Part shown: piece by piece, positions 4,368 through 32,538 of the stretch
Position numbering within the stretch: position 1 is the stretch's first letter
Layout of the letters: every line of letters starts with the position of its first letter
Assembly (NCBI GenBank): GCA_030649165.1
Contig: JAUSGG010000217.1
Span: 1 to 40,686 of the forward strand
Length of the DNA stretch: 40,686 nt
Reading direction: 5' to 3'
From: Armatimonadota bacterium
GTDB lineage: Bacteria; Armatimonadota; UBA5829; JAUSEB01
Program-made: the position numbers and the translations under genes
The notes under the pieces: model-generated
What the model saw: the letters and a program-made list of their open reading frames with translations, nothing else
Databases searched by the model: none
What the model was told of the DNA's origin: nothing

Positions 4368-5438
4368 GTGCGCACAATGGTCAACCCCGGACGTGATAAT
4401 CAGCTCAGACTGCCGCCCGTACTGCCGCGGCTTGCGGCGGCCGTGCTGTTGCTCACGGCGCTGCTACTTCTGGTTAGCCTGATAAGCCTGAGCGTGGGTC
4501 AGGCAAACATTCCGTTGAGCTTGACGCTGCATTCAGCGGCGGTCAAGCTGCATCTTGCTTCGCCCGGAGCTTATCCGATCCTCGATTCAACGGACGCGAT
4601 ACTTTGGGATATGCGCCTGCCGCGAGTGGTTCTGGCCGCGCTCGTGGGTATGCTTCTCGCGGTCGCGGGTGTCGCGCTCCAGGGACTGCTCCTGAACCCG
4701 CTCGCCGATCCGTACACCGTCGGCGTTTCTTCGGGCGCGGCGCTGGGGGCGTCGGCCGCGGTCGTTCTGGGCCTCGGGCGGCTGGCGCACGGGTACGGTG
4801 TGCCCCTCATGGCGTTCGCGGCGGCAATCGGCGCGATGGCGCTCGTTTATTCACTCGCGCGCTACCGCGGGCGGCTGGCGATGCACTCGTTTCTCCTGGC
4901 CGGGGTCGTGGTAGGAAGCTTCCTGTGGGCGCTCCTCACATTCATAATAACGCTCGCTGGACAGGACCTGAGCGTGATCATCTACTGGCTGCTGGGCAGT
5001 TTTCAGGCGCCTGACCCGTGGGGTTACGTGAAGCTCGCGCTGCCGGTTGGGGCAATCGCCCTCGTAACGCTTTACGCCTTCGCGCGCGACCTCAACATAT
5101 TCGCGCTTGGTGAGGAAACGGCCCACCACCTGGGCGTGCGCACGGAGAGCCTGAAGACTATTATAATCACCGTGACTTCGCTCGCCACGGCCGCCGCGGT
5201 TTCCGTGAGTGGGATTATCGGATTCGTGGGATTGATAGCCCCGCACATGGCCAGGCGCTTGTTTGGCCCGGACCATCGGGTTCTGATGCCGTCAGCCGCC
5301 CTTCTGGGGGCAATACTGCTGGTCGCCGCGGACGCCGTCGCCCGCAATGTCGTGCGCGGCGGCGAGCTGCCGGTCGGGGTAATAACCTCGCTCCTGGGCG
5401 CGCCTTTCTTCTGCTATTTGCTGAGGAAGGGAAGATAG
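4368..5438 (+). CDS. FecCD/BtuC-family ABC importer permease
   Basis: A 356-residue integral membrane protein of the iron-siderophore/cobalamin uptake family. It shows about ten hydrophobic segments from residue 20 on. Family signatures are RLPRVVLAALVGMLLAVAG (about 83-101), NPLADPYTVGVSSGAALGA, and the cytoplasmic-loop segment GFVGLIAPHMARRLFG (about 289-304) that contacts the ATPase. It should form a dimer that receives substrate from a periplasmic binding protein, but no binding protein or ATPase gene lies nearby, so it is an orphan here. The GTG at 4368 fits the leaderless pattern; ATG at 4377 is the alternative. Its TAG stop is the first three bases of an 8-bp tandem array. Whether the substrate is heme, siderophore or B12 cannot be told. 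Confidence 0.88.
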   Translation: MRTMVNPGRDNQLRLPPVLPRLAAAVLLLTALLLLVSLISLSVGQANIPLSLTLHSAAVKLHLASPGAYPILDSTDAILWDMRLPRVVLAALVGMLLAVAGVALQGLLLNPLADPYTVGVSSGAALGASAAVVLGLGRLAHGYGVPLMAFAAAIGAMALVYSLARYRGRLAMHSFLLAGVVVGSFLWALLTFIITLAGQDLSVIIYWLLGSFQAPDPWGYVKLALPVGAIALVTLYAFARDLNIFALGEETAHHLGVRTESLKTIIITVTSLATAAAVSVSGIIGFVGLIAPHMARRLFGPDHRVLMPSAALLGAILLVAADAVARNVVRGGELPVGVITSLLGAPFFCYLLRKGR

Positions 5439-5491
5439 GGTTATAGGGTTCCAGGGTTCCAAGGTTCTAAGGTTCTAAGGTTCTAAGGGTT
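5436..5491 (+). repeat. Octamer array joining two convergent stop codons
   Basis: Seven 8-bp units in perfect register: TAGGGTTA, TAGGGTTC, CAGGGTTC, CAAGGTTC, TAAGGTTC, TAAGGTTC, TAAGGGTT. The first triplet is the stop of the FecCD permease. On the minus strand the array encodes the last residues (TLRTLEP) and the TAG stop of the phosphodiesterase. Same family as 8073-8120 and 31435-31490. Confidence 0.95.
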
Positions 5492-6210
5492 TGGAGCAAG
5501 ACGTCGGGGCGGTTGGTGGTAATGCCGTCAACTCCGAGTTCGGCGAAATGTTTTGCCTCCTCCAGCGAGTCGATAGTCCAGACGTACAGCCGCAGGCCGG
5601 CGGCTTTGACCTCCCGCGCGAAATCCGCGTCAATGCTCTCGTTTGCTTCCAAGTCCAGTCCGTCAAGTCCCGCGCGCCGGGCTTCTTCGATCAAGTCTCG
5701 AATTGTCGGAGTCCCGTTTCCGCCAGAGCCTGAAAGAAAACAGGCGCTGCACTCCGGAAGGAAACGTTTGGCCTCCGTCACGGCCCGCGGCGAGAAGCTT
5801 ATTATGGCGATTTGATCGAGCCGCTTGTCGGATGCTCGCACCACCCTGTCGAGTTCAGAGACAATCTCGGGGCCGCCCTTGAGCTCGATGAACATCCTCT
5901 TGCCGTCGGGGATCGTGTCGAGCGCCTCTTCGAGCGTCGGGACCTTTTGTCCGGCCCATTCAGCGCCTTTCCACGAGCCTGCGTCGTGAGCGCGGATTTC
6001 GGAAAGGGTCTGATCGGAGATGAGGCCGGCCGCGCCGGTGGTTCGCGGAGTGTCGTCGTCGTGCATCACGACCAGACGGGCGTCCTTTGTCAGATGGACG
6101 TCGATTTCGACCGCATCCGCGCCCATCCGCCAGGCGAGGTCGATCGATGCGAGCGTGTTCTCCGGCGCGACGTGCGAAGCCCCTCGGTGGGCAATGATCT
6201 CAAGAGCCAC
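5467..6210 (-). CDS. Glycerophosphodiester phosphodiesterase
   Basis: A 247-residue GDPD-family TIM barrel that hydrolyses glycerophosphodiesters to glycerol 3-phosphate and an alcohol. The catalytic and metal residues are all in place: HRGA (8-11), PENT, EIDVHLTKD and VVMHDDD near the N-terminus, ELKGG in the middle and WTIDSLEEA near the end. It has no signal peptide, so it is probably cytoplasmic and close to the UgpQ type. The start is GTG at 6210 with GGAGG 5 bp upstream. The final seven codons and the stop are made of the 8-bp repeat array, so the natural C-terminus has probably been replaced or extended by it. DsbD lies upstream on the same strand, separated by a palindromic repeat. 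Confidence 0.93.
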   Translation of the reverse strand: MALEIIAHRGASHVAPENTLASIDLAWRMGADAVEIDVHLTKDARLVVMHDDDTPRTTGAAGLISDQTLSEIRAHDAGSWKGAEWAGQKVPTLEEALDTIPDGKRMFIELKGGPEIVSELDRVVRASDKRLDQIAIISFSPRAVTEAKRFLPECSACFLSGSGGNGTPTIRDLIEEARRAGLDGLDLEANESIDADFAREVKAAGLRLYVWTIDSLEEAKHFAELGVDGITTNRPDVLLQTLRTLEP

Positions 6211-6232: not shown

Positions 6233-6310
6233 AATCACGAAAGTACGAAAATACGAAAATACGAAATGGGGTGTCTGATTTCGTGCTTTCGCCGTTTCGT
6301 GTCTTCGTGA
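6233..6310. repeat. CGAAAATA octamer repeat forming a long palindrome
   Basis: Starts ATCACGAA, AGTACGAA, AATACGAA, AATACGAA, then after a short spacer the inverse units TTTCGTGC, TTTCGCCG, TTTCGTGT, CTTCGTGA. The two arms can pair over about 30 bp. It lies between dsbD and the phosphodiesterase gene, and a half-copy is at 36621-36655. Repeats of this wording are widespread in environmental genomes. Confidence 0.8.
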
Positions 6311-6324
6311 TAAAAGTTCAATCT

Positions 6325-8097
6325 CTAATGTACCGCGGACATACGGTCCAGGAATTCCTTAGGTGGGACAAATCCGACGACCCTTCTGGCCCGGACCTCT
6401 TGCCCAGCGGAGTCGATGAAAATGACCGTCGGCAAACCTCTCACATCGAAGCGCTTGACCAGCGCGTCGGTTTCCGGCGATCTCCTGGTCAGATCGGCGC
6501 GGAGACGCGCGAATAGACAGCTTTGCTGAACAACCGTCGGATCGGTAAACGTCTTATCGTCCAGTTCCTTGCACGCGCCGCACCACTTTGCGGTGAAATC
6601 GATGATGACCGGCCTGCCGTCCGCGGCGGCCTTTTCGAGGGACTGAGGAGTATATGCCGTCCACCCTACATGCTGCCGCGGCGCGTGCGGAGCGAGGAAC
6701 CACAGCGCCGCGAGCCCGACTGCTATTCCAAGAACGGGGCGGGCAAACACCGAGGCGCGGCCCACGGCAAGAGACGACTTGAACGCCGTGAGGTATACCG
6801 CGACCACCAACAGGAACACGGGCAGAACAAACCGCTGAGCCTGCAACGGGAGCAGGAATTGGATGAAATAGGCAGCCGCGCCGAGCAGAACCAGGCCGGA
6901 TAGCTTCTTGACGCTCACCATCCACATTCCCGCCTGTGGCAGACGGCTGATCGCTCCGGAGAACATCGCCAGGATCAGGAACGGCAGCCCAAGGCCGAGC
7001 GCCAGACTGAAGAATATCCAGAAACCAAGCACGGCGTTCCCCAATTGGGTCACCCATACGGCCACCCCGACCACGGCAGGTCCGATGCACGGGGACGCGA
7101 CTACACCGAGCATCAGTCCCATCAGCAACGCGCCGAACGCTCCGCTTTTGGCGCCGGTACGGTTCATAATGAAAGCCGGCGGCTGAATGTCGTACATACC
7201 GAACATCCCCAGCGCCAGTGCCACAAAGACGGCTGCGACGAGACCGACGACGTAAGGATTCTGAAACGCGGCGCCTACAATAGTCCCGAATGACGCGGCA
7301 AGGACTCCGAGCGCCGAGTACGTTATCGCCATTCCGATTACGTACAGCAGCGCCAGAGTGAAAAGCTTCTCTTTTCGGCCTTCCGATTGTCCTGCGAAGA
7401 AGCCGATGGTTACCGGGATCATCGGGTATACGCACGGCGTCAGGCACAACGTCAGTCCGAGCAGGAAACTGATCAGAGCGGCGATCAGGGGGTTGCTCCT
7501 CTTCAGAGCGCCCAGCAGCTTGCCGGCCATTCCCTGCGCCTCGACGCCCGGCTCGGGCTCGACTTCGCAGAAGACCGCGCCGTTGGCCGGTTTGGCCGTG
7601 CCCGCGGGGGCTACGCGAGTGGATATCCTGGTCGCGGCCTCTCCCGGCGGGTAGCAGGCGTTATCGTCGCAGGCTTGATACGTAAGCGATACTCTCAGAG
7701 TCCGCGGTCCCACCTTTGCGTTCTTCGCCACCTCGCCCGGAACGATGATCTTGAACCTGCCTTCGTACACGGGAATTGGCGTCTCGGTAAAGGCGAACTT
7801 CTTCTTGACCGGCGGCGGGAATTCGGGGCGACCGAGCTTCACACCGGGTCCCGCGCTGATGCTTAGAACAGGGGGAATAACGGCCGTGTCGGAACTGGGG
7901 GCGTTTACGTGTAGTCCCGGTCTAACCTCAGCGACTACCGCGGCTTTGAACTTGGAGCCGGCTGCCAGCTTATCGACCGAAAGCGCCGCGGTGATCTTGA
8001 CAAGGTCTGAGGAGGGCGCCATCTGCGCGCGCGCCGAACTCGCCGTCGCCAGCGTGACGAGAATTGCGATAATAGGTTTGTAGGTTCTTAGGTTCAT
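6325..8097 (-). CDS. dsbD: Thiol:disulfide interchange protein DsbD
   Basis: A 590-residue protein with the complete three-part DsbD layout. A signal peptide (1-24) leads to a periplasmic alpha domain with the redox pair C143/C148 (ACDDNACYPPGE). The membrane domain has cysteines in TPCVYP (C222) and ASPCIGP (C337). A C-terminal thioredoxin domain carries FTAKWCGACK (C506, C509). It passes electrons from cytoplasmic thioredoxin to periplasmic thiols, for protein repair or cytochrome c maturation; no other ccm or dsb gene is nearby. The start codon and the first eight residues are encoded by an octamer repeat array (8073-8120), and no Shine-Dalgarno sequence precedes the ATG. A TATAAT -10 box (8152-8147) lies about 50 bp upstream without a good -35. 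Confidence 0.96.
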   Translation of the reverse strand: MNLRTYKPIIAILVTLATASSARAQMAPSSDLVKITAALSVDKLAAGSKFKAAVVAEVRPGLHVNAPSSDTAVIPPVLSISAGPGVKLGRPEFPPPVKKKFAFTETPIPVYEGRFKIIVPGEVAKNAKVGPRTLRVSLTYQACDDNACYPPGEAATRISTRVAPAGTAKPANGAVFCEVEPEPGVEAQGMAGKLLGALKRSNPLIAALISFLLGLTLCLTPCVYPMIPVTIGFFAGQSEGRKEKLFTLALLYVIGMAITYSALGVLAASFGTIVGAAFQNPYVVGLVAAVFVALALGMFGMYDIQPPAFIMNRTGAKSGAFGALLMGLMLGVVASPCIGPAVVGVAVWVTQLGNAVLGFWIFFSLALGLGLPFLILAMFSGAISRLPQAGMWMVSVKKLSGLVLLGAAAYFIQFLLPLQAQRFVLPVFLLVVAVYLTAFKSSLAVGRASVFARPVLGIAVGLAALWFLAPHAPRQHVGWTAYTPQSLEKAAADGRPVIIDFTAKWCGACKELDDKTFTDPTVVQQSCLFARLRADLTRRSPETDALVKRFDVRGLPTVIFIDSAGQEVRARRVVGFVPPKEFLDRMSAVH

Positions 8098-8120
8098 AGG
8101 TTCTTAGGGTTCCAGGGTTC
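8073..8120 (+). repeat. Octamer array running through the dsbD start codon
   Basis: Six 8-bp units: TAGGTTTG, TAGGTTCT, TAGGTTCA, TAGGTTCT, TAGGGTTC, CAGGGTTC, then a degenerate TAAGGGTT. The dsbD ATG (8097-8095) is formed by a variant unit, and the array continues into the coding sequence for residues 2-8. Confidence 0.93.
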
Positions 8121-8256
8121 TAAGGGTTCGCATCAAAATCCACTCTATTATACAACTCATGTGCGTCGCAGGCATAATGGTTCCGCGAGGCGTTGAGTCG
8201 GAGTTGGACGGATCAGACGAATAGGACGGATACGACATCGCAACCAACAACCCCAT

Positions 8257-8284
8257 TTGACACCCGACAAGCTCTATGTACAAT
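8257..8284 (+). promoter_or_regulatory. Sigma70 promoter of the cysteine desulfurase gene
   Basis: TTGACA (8257-8262), a 16-bp spacer, TACAAT (8279-8284). The predicted start of transcription coincides with the ATG at 8291, which is only 6 bp past the -10 box and has no Shine-Dalgarno sequence. This is the clearest leaderless candidate in the window. Confidence 0.8.
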
Positions 8285-8290
8285 TGAGCT

Positions 8291-9433
8291 ATGAGGAAAA
8301 CAATCTACCTTGACCATTCGGCCACAACTCCGGTCGAGCCCGCCGTGTTCGCGGCTATGACGCCATATCTGACCGAGAAGTTTGGGAACGCTTCGAGCAT
8401 TCACTCTTTCGGCAGAGACGCCAGGGCGGCGGTTGACGAGGCGCGAGACACCATCGCGTCCTCTGTCGGAGCTTCGGCGGCGGAAATCCACTTTACCAGC
8501 GGCGGCACTGAAGCGGACAACCTGGCAGTCCTTGGCGCCGCCAGGGCGAACAGGGACAGGGGAGACCATATCGTCACCTGCGCCACCGAGCATCACGCCG
8601 TGCTGGAATCGTGCAAAAGACTTGAGGAGGAAGGATTCCGGGTTACGTATCTGCCTGTGGACAGCGAGGGCCTGTTCGATCCCTCGGATGTGGCCTCCGC
8701 AATTACAGATCGCACGATTCTCGTGTCGATAATGCACGTTAACAACGAGATCGGAGTCATACACCCGATTTCGATCATCGGGCGCAGCGCGAGTGAAAGA
8801 GGCGTTCTGTTTCACACTGATGCGGTGCAATCGTTCGGCGTCCTGCGGGTGGACGTGGACCGTCTGAACGTAGACCTTCTTTCGGCGTCGGCGCACAAGA
8901 TATACGGGCCGAAGGGGGCCGGCTTTCTCTACGTCAGGAGCGGCGTCCGGATAGAGCCACTTCAGTTCGGAGGAGGACAGGAGCGGGAGCGGCGGCCCGG
9001 CACGGAGAACGTGGCCGGGATCGTCGGTCTGGGCGCCGCGGCGGAGCTGGCGCTCTCGCAGATAGAAACAACTCCGCCGAGACTTGCGGCGCTGCGAGAC
9101 TACCTTATAGACAGCATCCTTTCGCGTTTTCCCGACGCTCACGTAAACGGCCACAGGCAGCTCCGCGCTCCGGGAAACGCCAATATCAGTTTTGCCGGGG
9201 TGGAAGGCGAAATACTCCTGCTCAATCTGGACTTGGAGGGGATAGCGGCATCCAGCGGCTCGGCGTGCACCGCGGGCTCGACGCACGCATCCCACGTGCT
9301 CACGGCGCTGCAACTCTCTCCGGAGCTGGCGCGGGGCTCGCTGCGCCTGACGGTAGGGCGGGGGACAACGAAGGAGGACATCGACGAAGCGCTCGTGGCG
9401 TTGGAGACGATCGTTGGTCGGTTGAGAGAGTAA
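8291..9433 (+). CDS. Cysteine desulfurase, IscS/NifS family
   Basis: A 380-residue class I PLP enzyme that takes sulfur from cysteine for Fe-S clusters and thio-modified tRNA. Visible elements: YLDHSATTP at the N-terminus, TSGGTEADN (69-77) in the cofactor site, ATEHHAV (H101/H102) over the PLP ring, HTDAVQ (175-180), the Schiff-base lysine K203 in SAHKIYGPKG, and the catalytic cysteine C326 in SSGSACTAGS. Length and the short cysteine-loop sequence fit IscS/NifS rather than SufS. No iscU, iscR or mnmA is beside it, so it appears to be a single-gene unit with its own promoter. It is convergent with htpX. Confidence 0.95.
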   Translation: MRKTIYLDHSATTPVEPAVFAAMTPYLTEKFGNASSIHSFGRDARAAVDEARDTIASSVGASAAEIHFTSGGTEADNLAVLGAARANRDRGDHIVTCATEHHAVLESCKRLEEEGFRVTYLPVDSEGLFDPSDVASAITDRTILVSIMHVNNEIGVIHPISIIGRSASERGVLFHTDAVQSFGVLRVDVDRLNVDLLSASAHKIYGPKGAGFLYVRSGVRIEPLQFGGGQERERRPGTENVAGIVGLGAAAELALSQIETTPPRLAALRDYLIDSILSRFPDAHVNGHRQLRAPGNANISFAGVEGEILLLNLDLEGIAASSGSACTAGSTHASHVLTALQLSPELARGSLRLTVGRGTTKEDIDEALVALETIVGRLRE

Positions 9434-9627: not shown

Positions 9628-10542
<915 letters not shown>

Positions 10543-10638: not shown

Positions 10639-10723
10639 TGCGCCCGCCCAACGGAGGGAGTGGAGAGAGTGGGAGGTGGGGATTCGGGGGCGATTGCGAA
10701 TGCGCCCGATCGGGGCTTTCCGT

Positions 10724-10777
10724 TCACAGTTCACTGTTCACCGGTCACTGCTCCGCTCACCGTTCACTAATCACTGC
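10724..10777 (-). repeat. GTGAACG heptamer array over the end of the corrinoid-activator gene
   Basis: On the plus strand TCAC recurs seven times at 7-bp spacing, with one 12-bp step. On the minus strand this reads GTGAACN and encodes the last six residues (AVISER) and the TGA stop of the gene at 10757. Same family as 3249-3276. Confidence 0.88.
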
Positions 10778-30800: not shown

Positions 30801-31019
30801 CGGCCCATCATGATGACGGCTTCGGCCGCGGTCCTGGGCATGCTGCCGTTGGCTTTGGGCATTGGCGATGGTTCGGAGGTGCAGGCCCCAATGGCGACCG
30901 CCGTGATAGGGGGGCTTCTCACTTCAACGGTTTTGACTCTATTCGTTGTTCCCGTCGTCTATTCGTTGTTCGACGACCTCACGTACCGGCTCAGGGGCAA
31001 GGAGAAGTCTCGTGATTGA
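27864..31019 (+). CDS. RND-family multidrug efflux pump (HAE1 type)
   Basis: A 1051-residue inner-membrane proton antiporter of AcrB type, normal length. It begins MSIARFAVTRPVAVVMRIAA. Landmarks are the two aspartates of TM4 in GLIVDDAVVVLENIFRHMERD (proton relay) and the TM10-TM12 part SQFESFIHPLTILFSVPLAG, then GIVVKNGILLVDYTN. Two large periplasmic loops carry the porter domains. It forms a trimer with the fusion protein encoded just before it. No outer-membrane TolC gene is in the window. The ATG at 27864 overlaps the stop of the fusion-protein gene by 4 bp. Substrates are unknown. Confidence 0.96.
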   Translation: MSIARFAVTRPVAVVMRIAALVLLGAVCFFRLPVDLLPDVTLPTVIITTQWPNVAPEEIEAQVTRPLERAVSSAPNMYQVSSSSVEGSSVVRVQFRWGADIGRAAVDVLQLVERARRQFPTDPTLQTPIVVKADPNQFPILVFGVSGISDRVRLRTLLDNQVTPILDSANGVASATVTGGQQRAIIVDVDPYKLHAHHVSLSDVMRRIMEENLNLPAGIGKEGKTEYVIRSLGWFKSPDEIAAIPLGAFDGQIVSLADVATVRDSHTETRLFTRLNSKPAAGVTITKQSGANTVETANAVFEKLETVKKLYPHLKFGVVYNQAQFIEASVRNVRDSAIIGGILAILILLFFLRNIRSTLVVALSIPTSIISTFALLYLCGFTINTMSLGGLALATGLIVDDAVVVLENIFRHMERDKKSSMEAAVSATGEILSAVVASTWTVMVVFLPLLLIKGQAGQMFTQFALVVIFSLAVSLLDATTVVPMLATRLISGEAHSDPPGKVPGGIGNGHRRGVTSRMFHRFGVWLNALDNGYRRRLKWALCHRPIVLAAAGSITLGSLLLVPYIGSELMPMTDSGDFSVGVKMPIGTALSETDNAIRRVEGVLSRNPNVQTVFSTAGSGGGRGPGGGQLRPYQGSLTVKLKPDREESTLEVMKGLRRQFAAIPGVNARPSQNDIVARIMSGGDQNIEIDIFGDDLTVLSALSREFLQRMRGIPGLENLDVNWQEAMPEIQWKVDRQKAQQMGISFQDVANTINTATNGSIASYFQERGFQYPIVVQLPEGQRKTVTEMRNIMVKVSPAGGSANKILLSQVAQPIYGLGPSEITRLDRQRFIAVTGAPQGRSPGEIQKDVQAAVRDIELPSGYYWDWGTNQKRRAEEFGGLGVAVFLAIALIYMLLASQFESFIHPLTILFSVPLAGAGVVLALFLSGRAFGLTAFIGVLMLVGIVVKNGILLVDYTNTLRHRGMARDEALTTAGPTRLRPIMMTASAAVLGMLPLALGIGDGSEVQAPMATAVIGGLLTSTVLTLFVVPVVYSLFDDLTYRLRGKEKSRD

Positions 31020-31437
31020 TCAAGAGGCTTTGAGGCAGGCGGCGGAGATCGTCGATCTCGCTCCCAGGATGATGCGCCGGCTGTTTGCGCTGGACGCGGA
31101 AGACCCGACCACCGAGCTTCCGTTGGCGCAATTACGGCTTTGCGGGATACTGCGGCAAGGTCCGCTGACGATGTCGGCGATAAGCAGGGAGTTGGGTGTA
31201 TCGTTGAGCGCAACGACCCAGTTGGCGGACAGGCTGGAGAACTCGGGCCTGGTCGAGAGGGCGTGCGAGAGTGGTGACCGGAGGATAAAGTTGCTGAGAT
31301 TGACCCCGGACGGGGAAAGGATAATGCGGGCGCGGCGGGAAAAGCGTGTGGCGTGCGCGGCGGAAGCCCTGGGGCAGTTACCGCGGGCGACCCGGGAGCG
31401 GCTGCTGAGCGCGCTGCGGGAGTCGGTGGAGTCATAG
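31012..31437 (+). CDS. MarR-family transcriptional regulator
   Basis: A 141-residue winged-helix regulator. The recognition region is LTMSAISRELGVSLSATTQLADRLE (about 54-78), and the wing contains VERACESGDRRIKLLRLTPDGE, both typical of MarR. The start is GTG at 31012 with AAGGAG 7 bp upstream, overlapping the pump gene by 8 bp. It is thus the third gene of the efflux operon, while MarR genes more often precede or diverge from the pump. It probably represses its own operon through the palindrome at 26252-26265. The TAG stop is the first triplet of an octamer array. Confidence 0.93.
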   Translation: MIDQEALRQAAEIVDLAPRMMRRLFALDAEDPTTELPLAQLRLCGILRQGPLTMSAISRELGVSLSATTQLADRLENSGLVERACESGDRRIKLLRLTPDGERIMRARREKRVACAAEALGQLPRATRERLLSALRESVES

Positions 31438-31490
31438 GGTTATAGGGTTCCAGGGTTTCGAGGCTGCAGGGTTGTAGGGGTCTTAGGGTT
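31435..31490 (+). repeat. Octamer array starting at the marR stop codon
   Basis: Seven 8-bp units: TAGGGTTA, TAGGGTTC, CAGGGTTT, CGAGGCTG, CAGGGTTG, TAGGGGTC, TTAGGGTT. The first 23 bases equal those at 5436-5458, and in both cases the first triplet is a gene's stop codon. Confidence 0.93.
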
Positions 31491-31525
31491 AAGAACTGGG
31501 CGCCACTGATGTCGTACTTGCGTGT

Positions 31526-32173: not shown

Positions 32174-32538
32174 GATGTTTCTCCTGCCTTTCGGCTCGTC
32201 GCGACCGCGATGGGTCGCGGAACTCTGTAGAGTACTCTCATGTTCTTTGACGAAAGGGGGAGGTTGGGGGTTACGGGGGGAACGCTAGCACAGCACGGTC
32301 TGGTTCAGGGAAGAACGCAGATAGACGCAGATATCCGCCGATGAACACGGATAGATGGGGATTGGGTGATGGGTGTTGGGTGATGGGCCGGAGACCTCAC
32401 CCCGGCCCTCTCCTGGGAGGAGGGGGCGGCACGTGGCGCATGTTCCGTTACCTGGATACCGTTCCCGCAAGACCGAACTCTTCATCTATGCTTGGCTGTG
32501 GCGGGGGGGATGTTGTATGATAGCTGCGGAGGGTTGGC
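32174..32538. other. 365-bp divergent gap filled with repeats
   Basis: Contains the leader hairpin of the RDH-rich gene (32200-32219), a run of three G tracts (32255-32280), a CACAGAT-type repeat (32313-32357), a heptamer array with GGG every 7 bp (TGATGGG, TGTTGGG, TGATGGG; 32353-32387) and a CTCACCCC element (32394-32424) with the GTTCCCGCA tail. TATGAT at about 32517 may be the -10 of the hydrolase gene. No reading frame here looks genuine. Confidence 0.7.

Follow-up and report, generated by a model that had tools for sequence, protein, structure and literature searches.

The dsbD gene of this uncultured, Armatimonadota-related bacterium opens inside a short array of degenerate octamers, which supplies both its ATG start codon and the seven codons that follow. 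The array belongs to a polar family of such arrays, and we consider it probable, taking these points together, that an array of this family has replaced the initiation region of dsbD, that translation now proceeds from the array-borne ATG at position 8097 without a Shine-Dalgarno sequence, and that the array is static. Its position, its polarity and its contribution to the coding sequence are matters of direct observation. Positions refer to the window, i.e., the whole 40,686-nucleotide stretch of DNA that was analyzed, unless a locus handle precedes them.

The array occupies positions 8073..8129 and consists of seven units of the form TAGG(G)TT-N on the forward strand, which is the G-rich strand and is antisense to dsbD: TAGGTTTG TAGGTTCT TAGGTTCA TAGGTTCT TAGGGTTC CAGGGTTC TAAGGGTTC. 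The initial annotation had recognized an array here but had ended it too early, at 8120. Its seven in-period cores compare with a maximum of two in 300 first-order Markov versions of the window. On the reverse strand, the sequence across the dsbD start reads TTGTATAATAGAGTGGATTTTG ATGC GAACCCTTA GAACCCTG GAACCCTAA GAACCTAT GAACCTAA GAACCTAC AAACCTATTATCGCA. The dsbD ORF (8097..6325, reverse strand) opens with ATG AAC CTA AGA ACC TAC AAA CCT (8097-8074), and, as the initial annotation had claimed, all eight of these codons are supplied by array units, here read antisense, with NLRTYKP encoded by codons 2-8. The ATG itself (8095..8097) spans the end of the array's fourth unit and is made by a unit of the CATAGG variant. 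Upstream of it the frame is closed by an in-frame TAA at 8106-8104, and since no other ATG, GTG or TTG is found in frame between this stop codon and the hydrophobic core of the signal peptide, 8097 is the predicted start of dsbD, unless a rare start codon or read-through is used. That no Shine-Dalgarno sequence precedes this ATG had also been noted earlier, and we likewise found none; across the genome, such a sequence accompanies 46% of the starts called with confidence, the background being 11%. Gene starts were taken from a simple hexamer-based caller (82% coding), an earlier caller based on codon usage having been dropped because it yielded too few genes (41% coding).

The gene encodes an intact DsbD. 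Pfam searches recover DsbD_N, DsbD_TM and thioredoxin domains, the cysteine motifs CDDNAC, TPCVYP, SPCIGP and WCGAC are intact in translation, and an orthologue in the same family is 63% identical. The three domains, with their cysteine pairs, lie behind what we judged by eye to be a signal peptide, in which the array-coded n-region is followed by the hydrophobic core IIAILVTLATAS and a cleavage-type site, ARA-Q. Because this core and this site come after the array, the array-coded residues MNLRTYKP (8074..8097) would open a Sec signal peptide and make up its n-region. An n-region would tolerate such an array, since all it requires is a few residues with positive charge, and MNLRTYKP provides R and K.

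The same octamer had been reported at 5436 and 31435, and arrays were indeed recovered at 5436..5492 and 31435..31491 on the forward strand. At the former, the TAG at 5436-5438 is the stop codon of a FecCD-type gene, and the last codons and stop codon of a GDPD gene lie in the array from 5467; at the latter, a MarR-like gene (31012-31437) uses the first TAG as its stop codon. The GDPD gene ends in array-coded TLRTLEP followed by a stop codon (5467-5492), the same peptide as occurs in a mini-ORF upstream of dsbD described below. For the family as a whole, we sampled 1.78 Mb of the genome in stretches and counted as an array at least three AGG(G)TT cores spaced 7-10 or 15-18. This rule returned 103 arrays as against 4 in the reversed sequence, from stretches that were partly chosen for known arrays, so that densities are not genome averages. 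Genome-wide, the octamer unit occurs about 200 times, compared with once in the reversed control. Cores are spaced by 8 (209 cases) or 9 (84), and the number of arrays declines with the number of units, from 27 with three to 12 with four and 11 with five. Degenerate 7-9-mers of several unrelated kinds seem to be plentiful in the genome: further short tandem repeats, ACGAAAAT, CTCAGCG, CCGTTCA and GATGGGT, are present in the window at 6237-6266, 9638-9669, 10720-10767 and 32354-32387, and these families lie mostly between genes.

The octamer arrays are a lineage-specific family. Across 291 genomes of the phylum, a 16-mer searched at up to one mismatch was found 43 times in this genome, 18 times in the genome G032 and once each in two others, with no match in 287, so that G032 is the only other genome with many matches. 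In the nearest relative, G001, the 16-mer is at background when up to two mismatches are allowed. A search of the literature on intergenic repeats in Armatimonadetes found nothing relevant.

The arrays are mostly intergenic, lodged at the edges of many genes, and they are strongly polar. The 5' edge (the TAG end of the G-rich strand) is nearer to a gene than the 3' edge in 72 of 88 arrays (P about 6e-10). In 52 of the 88, no more than 5 nt separate the 5' edge from a gene; the 3' edge comes this close in 4, and random placement would give 4.5. Within 50 nt of a stop codon, 53 arrays are in sense and 14 in antisense orientation; near a start codon, 17 are antisense and 8 sense. Neighbouring arrays that share a gap form inverted pairs, all ten of which face inward. 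The dsbD array obeys the same polarity, with its 5' edge 25 nt inside dsbD and a distance of 161 nt between its 3' edge and the next gene, as do the arrays of G032, which is remote within the phylum (a small sample). Because it is the 5' (TAG) edge that falls at gene boundaries, arrays supply TAG stop codons and, more rarely, start codons. The first TAG of an array is the stop codon in 22 genes, and TAG makes up 33 of 39 array-supplied stops versus 443 of 1231 in other genes. Besides dsbD, three genes probably begin at an array-borne ATG. The array-borne starts of an alanine racemase (L184:8175) and a metallophosphatase (L234:8551) are supported by the position of their Pfam domains, which begin at residues 11 and 1. 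At L224:18706-18748, a DUF2961 gene was called with an array-coded N-terminus (MNLMNFINLYLRTCY), its start being putative.

We propose that octamer arrays lodge with their 5' (TAG) edge against a gene boundary while the body extends away from the gene, and that they may grow, or be added, in the direction away from gene edges, with only selection on coding sequence halting them. Were nothing else to stop them, the disposable ends of proteins, such as an n-region or a C-terminus, would come to be rebuilt with repeat codons. In dsbD, the array probably reached through the 5' leader into the n-region of the signal peptide and displaced the original initiation region; the likeliest history is that it took over the stretch between an old promoter or start and the hydrophobic core. 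Transcription would probably begin from a TATAAT box at 8147-8152, and translation would then start at the ATG at 8097 without a Shine-Dalgarno sequence. A dispersed repeat would in this way remodel gene ends, providing stops in many genes and starts and signal-peptide residues in a few.

The TATAAT box (8147..8152, reverse strand), a -10-like element that was not picked by a two-hexamer promoter scan, lies 13 nt before a second, more upstream ATG (8131-8133). This ATG, which perhaps survives from the original dsbD start, opens an array-coded mini-ORF of nine codons, MRTLRTLEP* (8104..8133, reverse strand), with an inferred role. DsbD might instead be expressed by way of this ATG (8133-8131), through reinitiation after the mini-ORF or through read-through, 8097 then being a second start. 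Against initiation at 8097, the upstream ATG is the one nearest the -10-like box and the first on the transcript, and it shares the dsbD frame, which is closed by a TAA only 6 nt before the ATG at 8097. The close relative G001 (DsbD 63% identical) likewise carries TTGTATAAT upstream of its dsbD, where it has no array. The dsbD starts of relatives lack an array and often follow closely on a -10-like box, as in several orthologues of the order, and the orthologues of genus g3 start with MRTYK behind such boxes, in a comparison whose species are few and not independent. However, no read-through context is known for the in-frame TAA, leaderless starts show no enrichment genome-wide, and MRTYK is confined to genus g3, G001 being different; expression by way of the upstream ATG is thus an account that we think rather unlikely. 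The RTYK of the array-coded dsbD start resembles the MRTYK of the g3 orthologues, a likeness that could make part of the array's end ancestral coding sequence and would to that extent argue against an array origin, although RTYK does appear in 5 of 309 antisense array frames. An MRTYK start inherited across the order is at most suggested by the data, given its confinement to genus g3, and leaderless initiation as a genome-wide habit was rejected for want of enrichment. Elsewhere in the window (8257-8293), a TTGACA-16-TACAAT element ends 6 nt before the ATG of the divergent cysteine desulfurase-like gene (8291+), whose transcript is apparently leaderless.

The initial annotation had further suggested that slippage within the array could turn dsbD on and off, as in phase variation. 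The 8-nt unit is not a multiple of 3, and a change in unit number does shift or abolish the in-frame start if it falls downstream of the ATG or removes it, but not otherwise. Were a unit lost downstream of the ATG, the in-frame start would be abolished, and a deletion of 16 nt between exact repeats 12 nt long would have this effect; in simulations, 4 of 7 deletions between exact repeats of 7 nt or more removed the start. In contrast, 46 of 50 distinct single-unit duplications left an in-frame start in place and were thus harmless. Adjacent units of the array all differ, none is perfectly repeated, and perfect repetition extends over 1.88 units at most, as against a floor of three uninterrupted units for octanucleotide simple sequence repeats (SSRs) in Haemophilus influenzae (PMC2651432). 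The SSR phase-variation loci of that species resemble dsbD in that the repeat is close to the gene's 5' end or spans it and has a unit that is not a multiple of 3, but in them perfect units follow one another in runs, and their length varies (PMC2651432). Moreover, DsbD is a membrane electron-transfer protein, a housekeeping product untypical of contingency genes, and most sibling arrays lie at the 3' ends of genes, where such a switch is impossible. Slippage switching therefore finds no support and seems to us very improbable; the dsbD array appears essentially static, a fixed remodelling rather than a slippage switch, and variation in its unit number is unproven. The longest near-perfect arrays, L142:7-86 and L131:1937-2024 (nine and six perfect units), are better candidates for length polymorphism.

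The array or its length might be wrong as assembled, so that the real start of dsbD differs. Short tandem repeats can collapse, and the genome is a single draft assembly of 266 contigs; nevertheless, the units are degenerate, a read of usual length would exceed the 57 nt of the entire array, and the same organization recurs at scores of places, which makes an artefact very improbable. A different reading is that the arrays are functional cis elements, acting in expression or termination as an RNA or DNA structure or a protein-binding site, and that the dsbD array regulates translation. The strict polarity to gene edges, the inward-facing pairs and the same placement both in distant G032 and in the repeats of Xanthomonas and Nostoc, which form G-quadruplexes in vitro (PMC4692102), would all suit such a role, as would the proposal that TAACTGA repeats near starts are translational regulators (PMC4679880). 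Yet near relatives all lack the arrays, which are highly degenerate; besides four GG tracts the dsbD array contains three of GGG, too few for a three-tier quadruplex; the fold of its leader RNA is unremarkable (z -0.68) and no terminator-like site was found, so that we regard this role as unlikely. Finally, the arrays might be scars of polar repeat addition, in which octamers are added 3'-ward to broken DNA ends in a telomere-like manner and the ends are then rejoined. If so, coding sequence would anchor the 5' edge of single arrays, inverted pairs would always face inward, and gene ends would be rebuilt with repeat-borne stops and starts, dsbD being a rebuilt 5' end; the observed polarity and inward-facing pairs agree with this. 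A strong match to the end-joining protein Ku (PF02735) is present in this genome (G000:C35:21815-22351), and a search of five other genomes gave none. However, G032 has arrays and shows no Ku (in an assembly 80% complete), and this genome has no RVT_1 reverse transcriptase. Reverse transcription as the source of the repeats was accordingly rejected, addition would have to be by slippage or another polymerase, and for these two reasons end addition remains doubtful.

Among known repeats, the closest in placement are the G-rich heptamers GGGAATC and GGGGA(C/T)T of Xanthomonas and Nostoc, for which Rehm et al. (2015) described the same rule and held phase variation to be unlikely (PMC4692102). 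Like the octamers, these heptamers form many short intergenic arrays, lie on the coding strand downstream of ORFs (overlap with the stop codon included) and on the non-coding strand upstream, keep their 5' side nearer the ORF whatever its orientation, occur in inverted pairs and have no link to surface genes. In contrast, the arrays described here consist of octamers, TAGG(G)TTN rather than GGGNATC heptamers, are more degenerate and mix GG with GGG, show no preference for, or peak at, four units, belong to an Armatimonadota-related host and in several cases supply start codons and N-terminal residues. The TAACTGA heptamers of Beggiatoaceae, which overlap stop codons and, rarely, the beginnings of proteins (MacGregor 2015; PMC4679880), are also dispersed arrays; one strand carries stop codons in every frame, some arrays overlap the stop of an upstream gene, Shine-Dalgarno sites are few nearby and the distribution across lineages is patchy. 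Unlike the octamers, they lie mostly just upstream of starts, are not G-rich and are exact copies. Strict polarity at gene edges, with different units in unrelated groups, is something that any account of the spread of short repeats in bacteria must meet, and a genome with array-free relatives makes the question of polarity testable. The arrays of this genome differ from the published repeats in unit, length, degeneracy, host and the supply of start codons.
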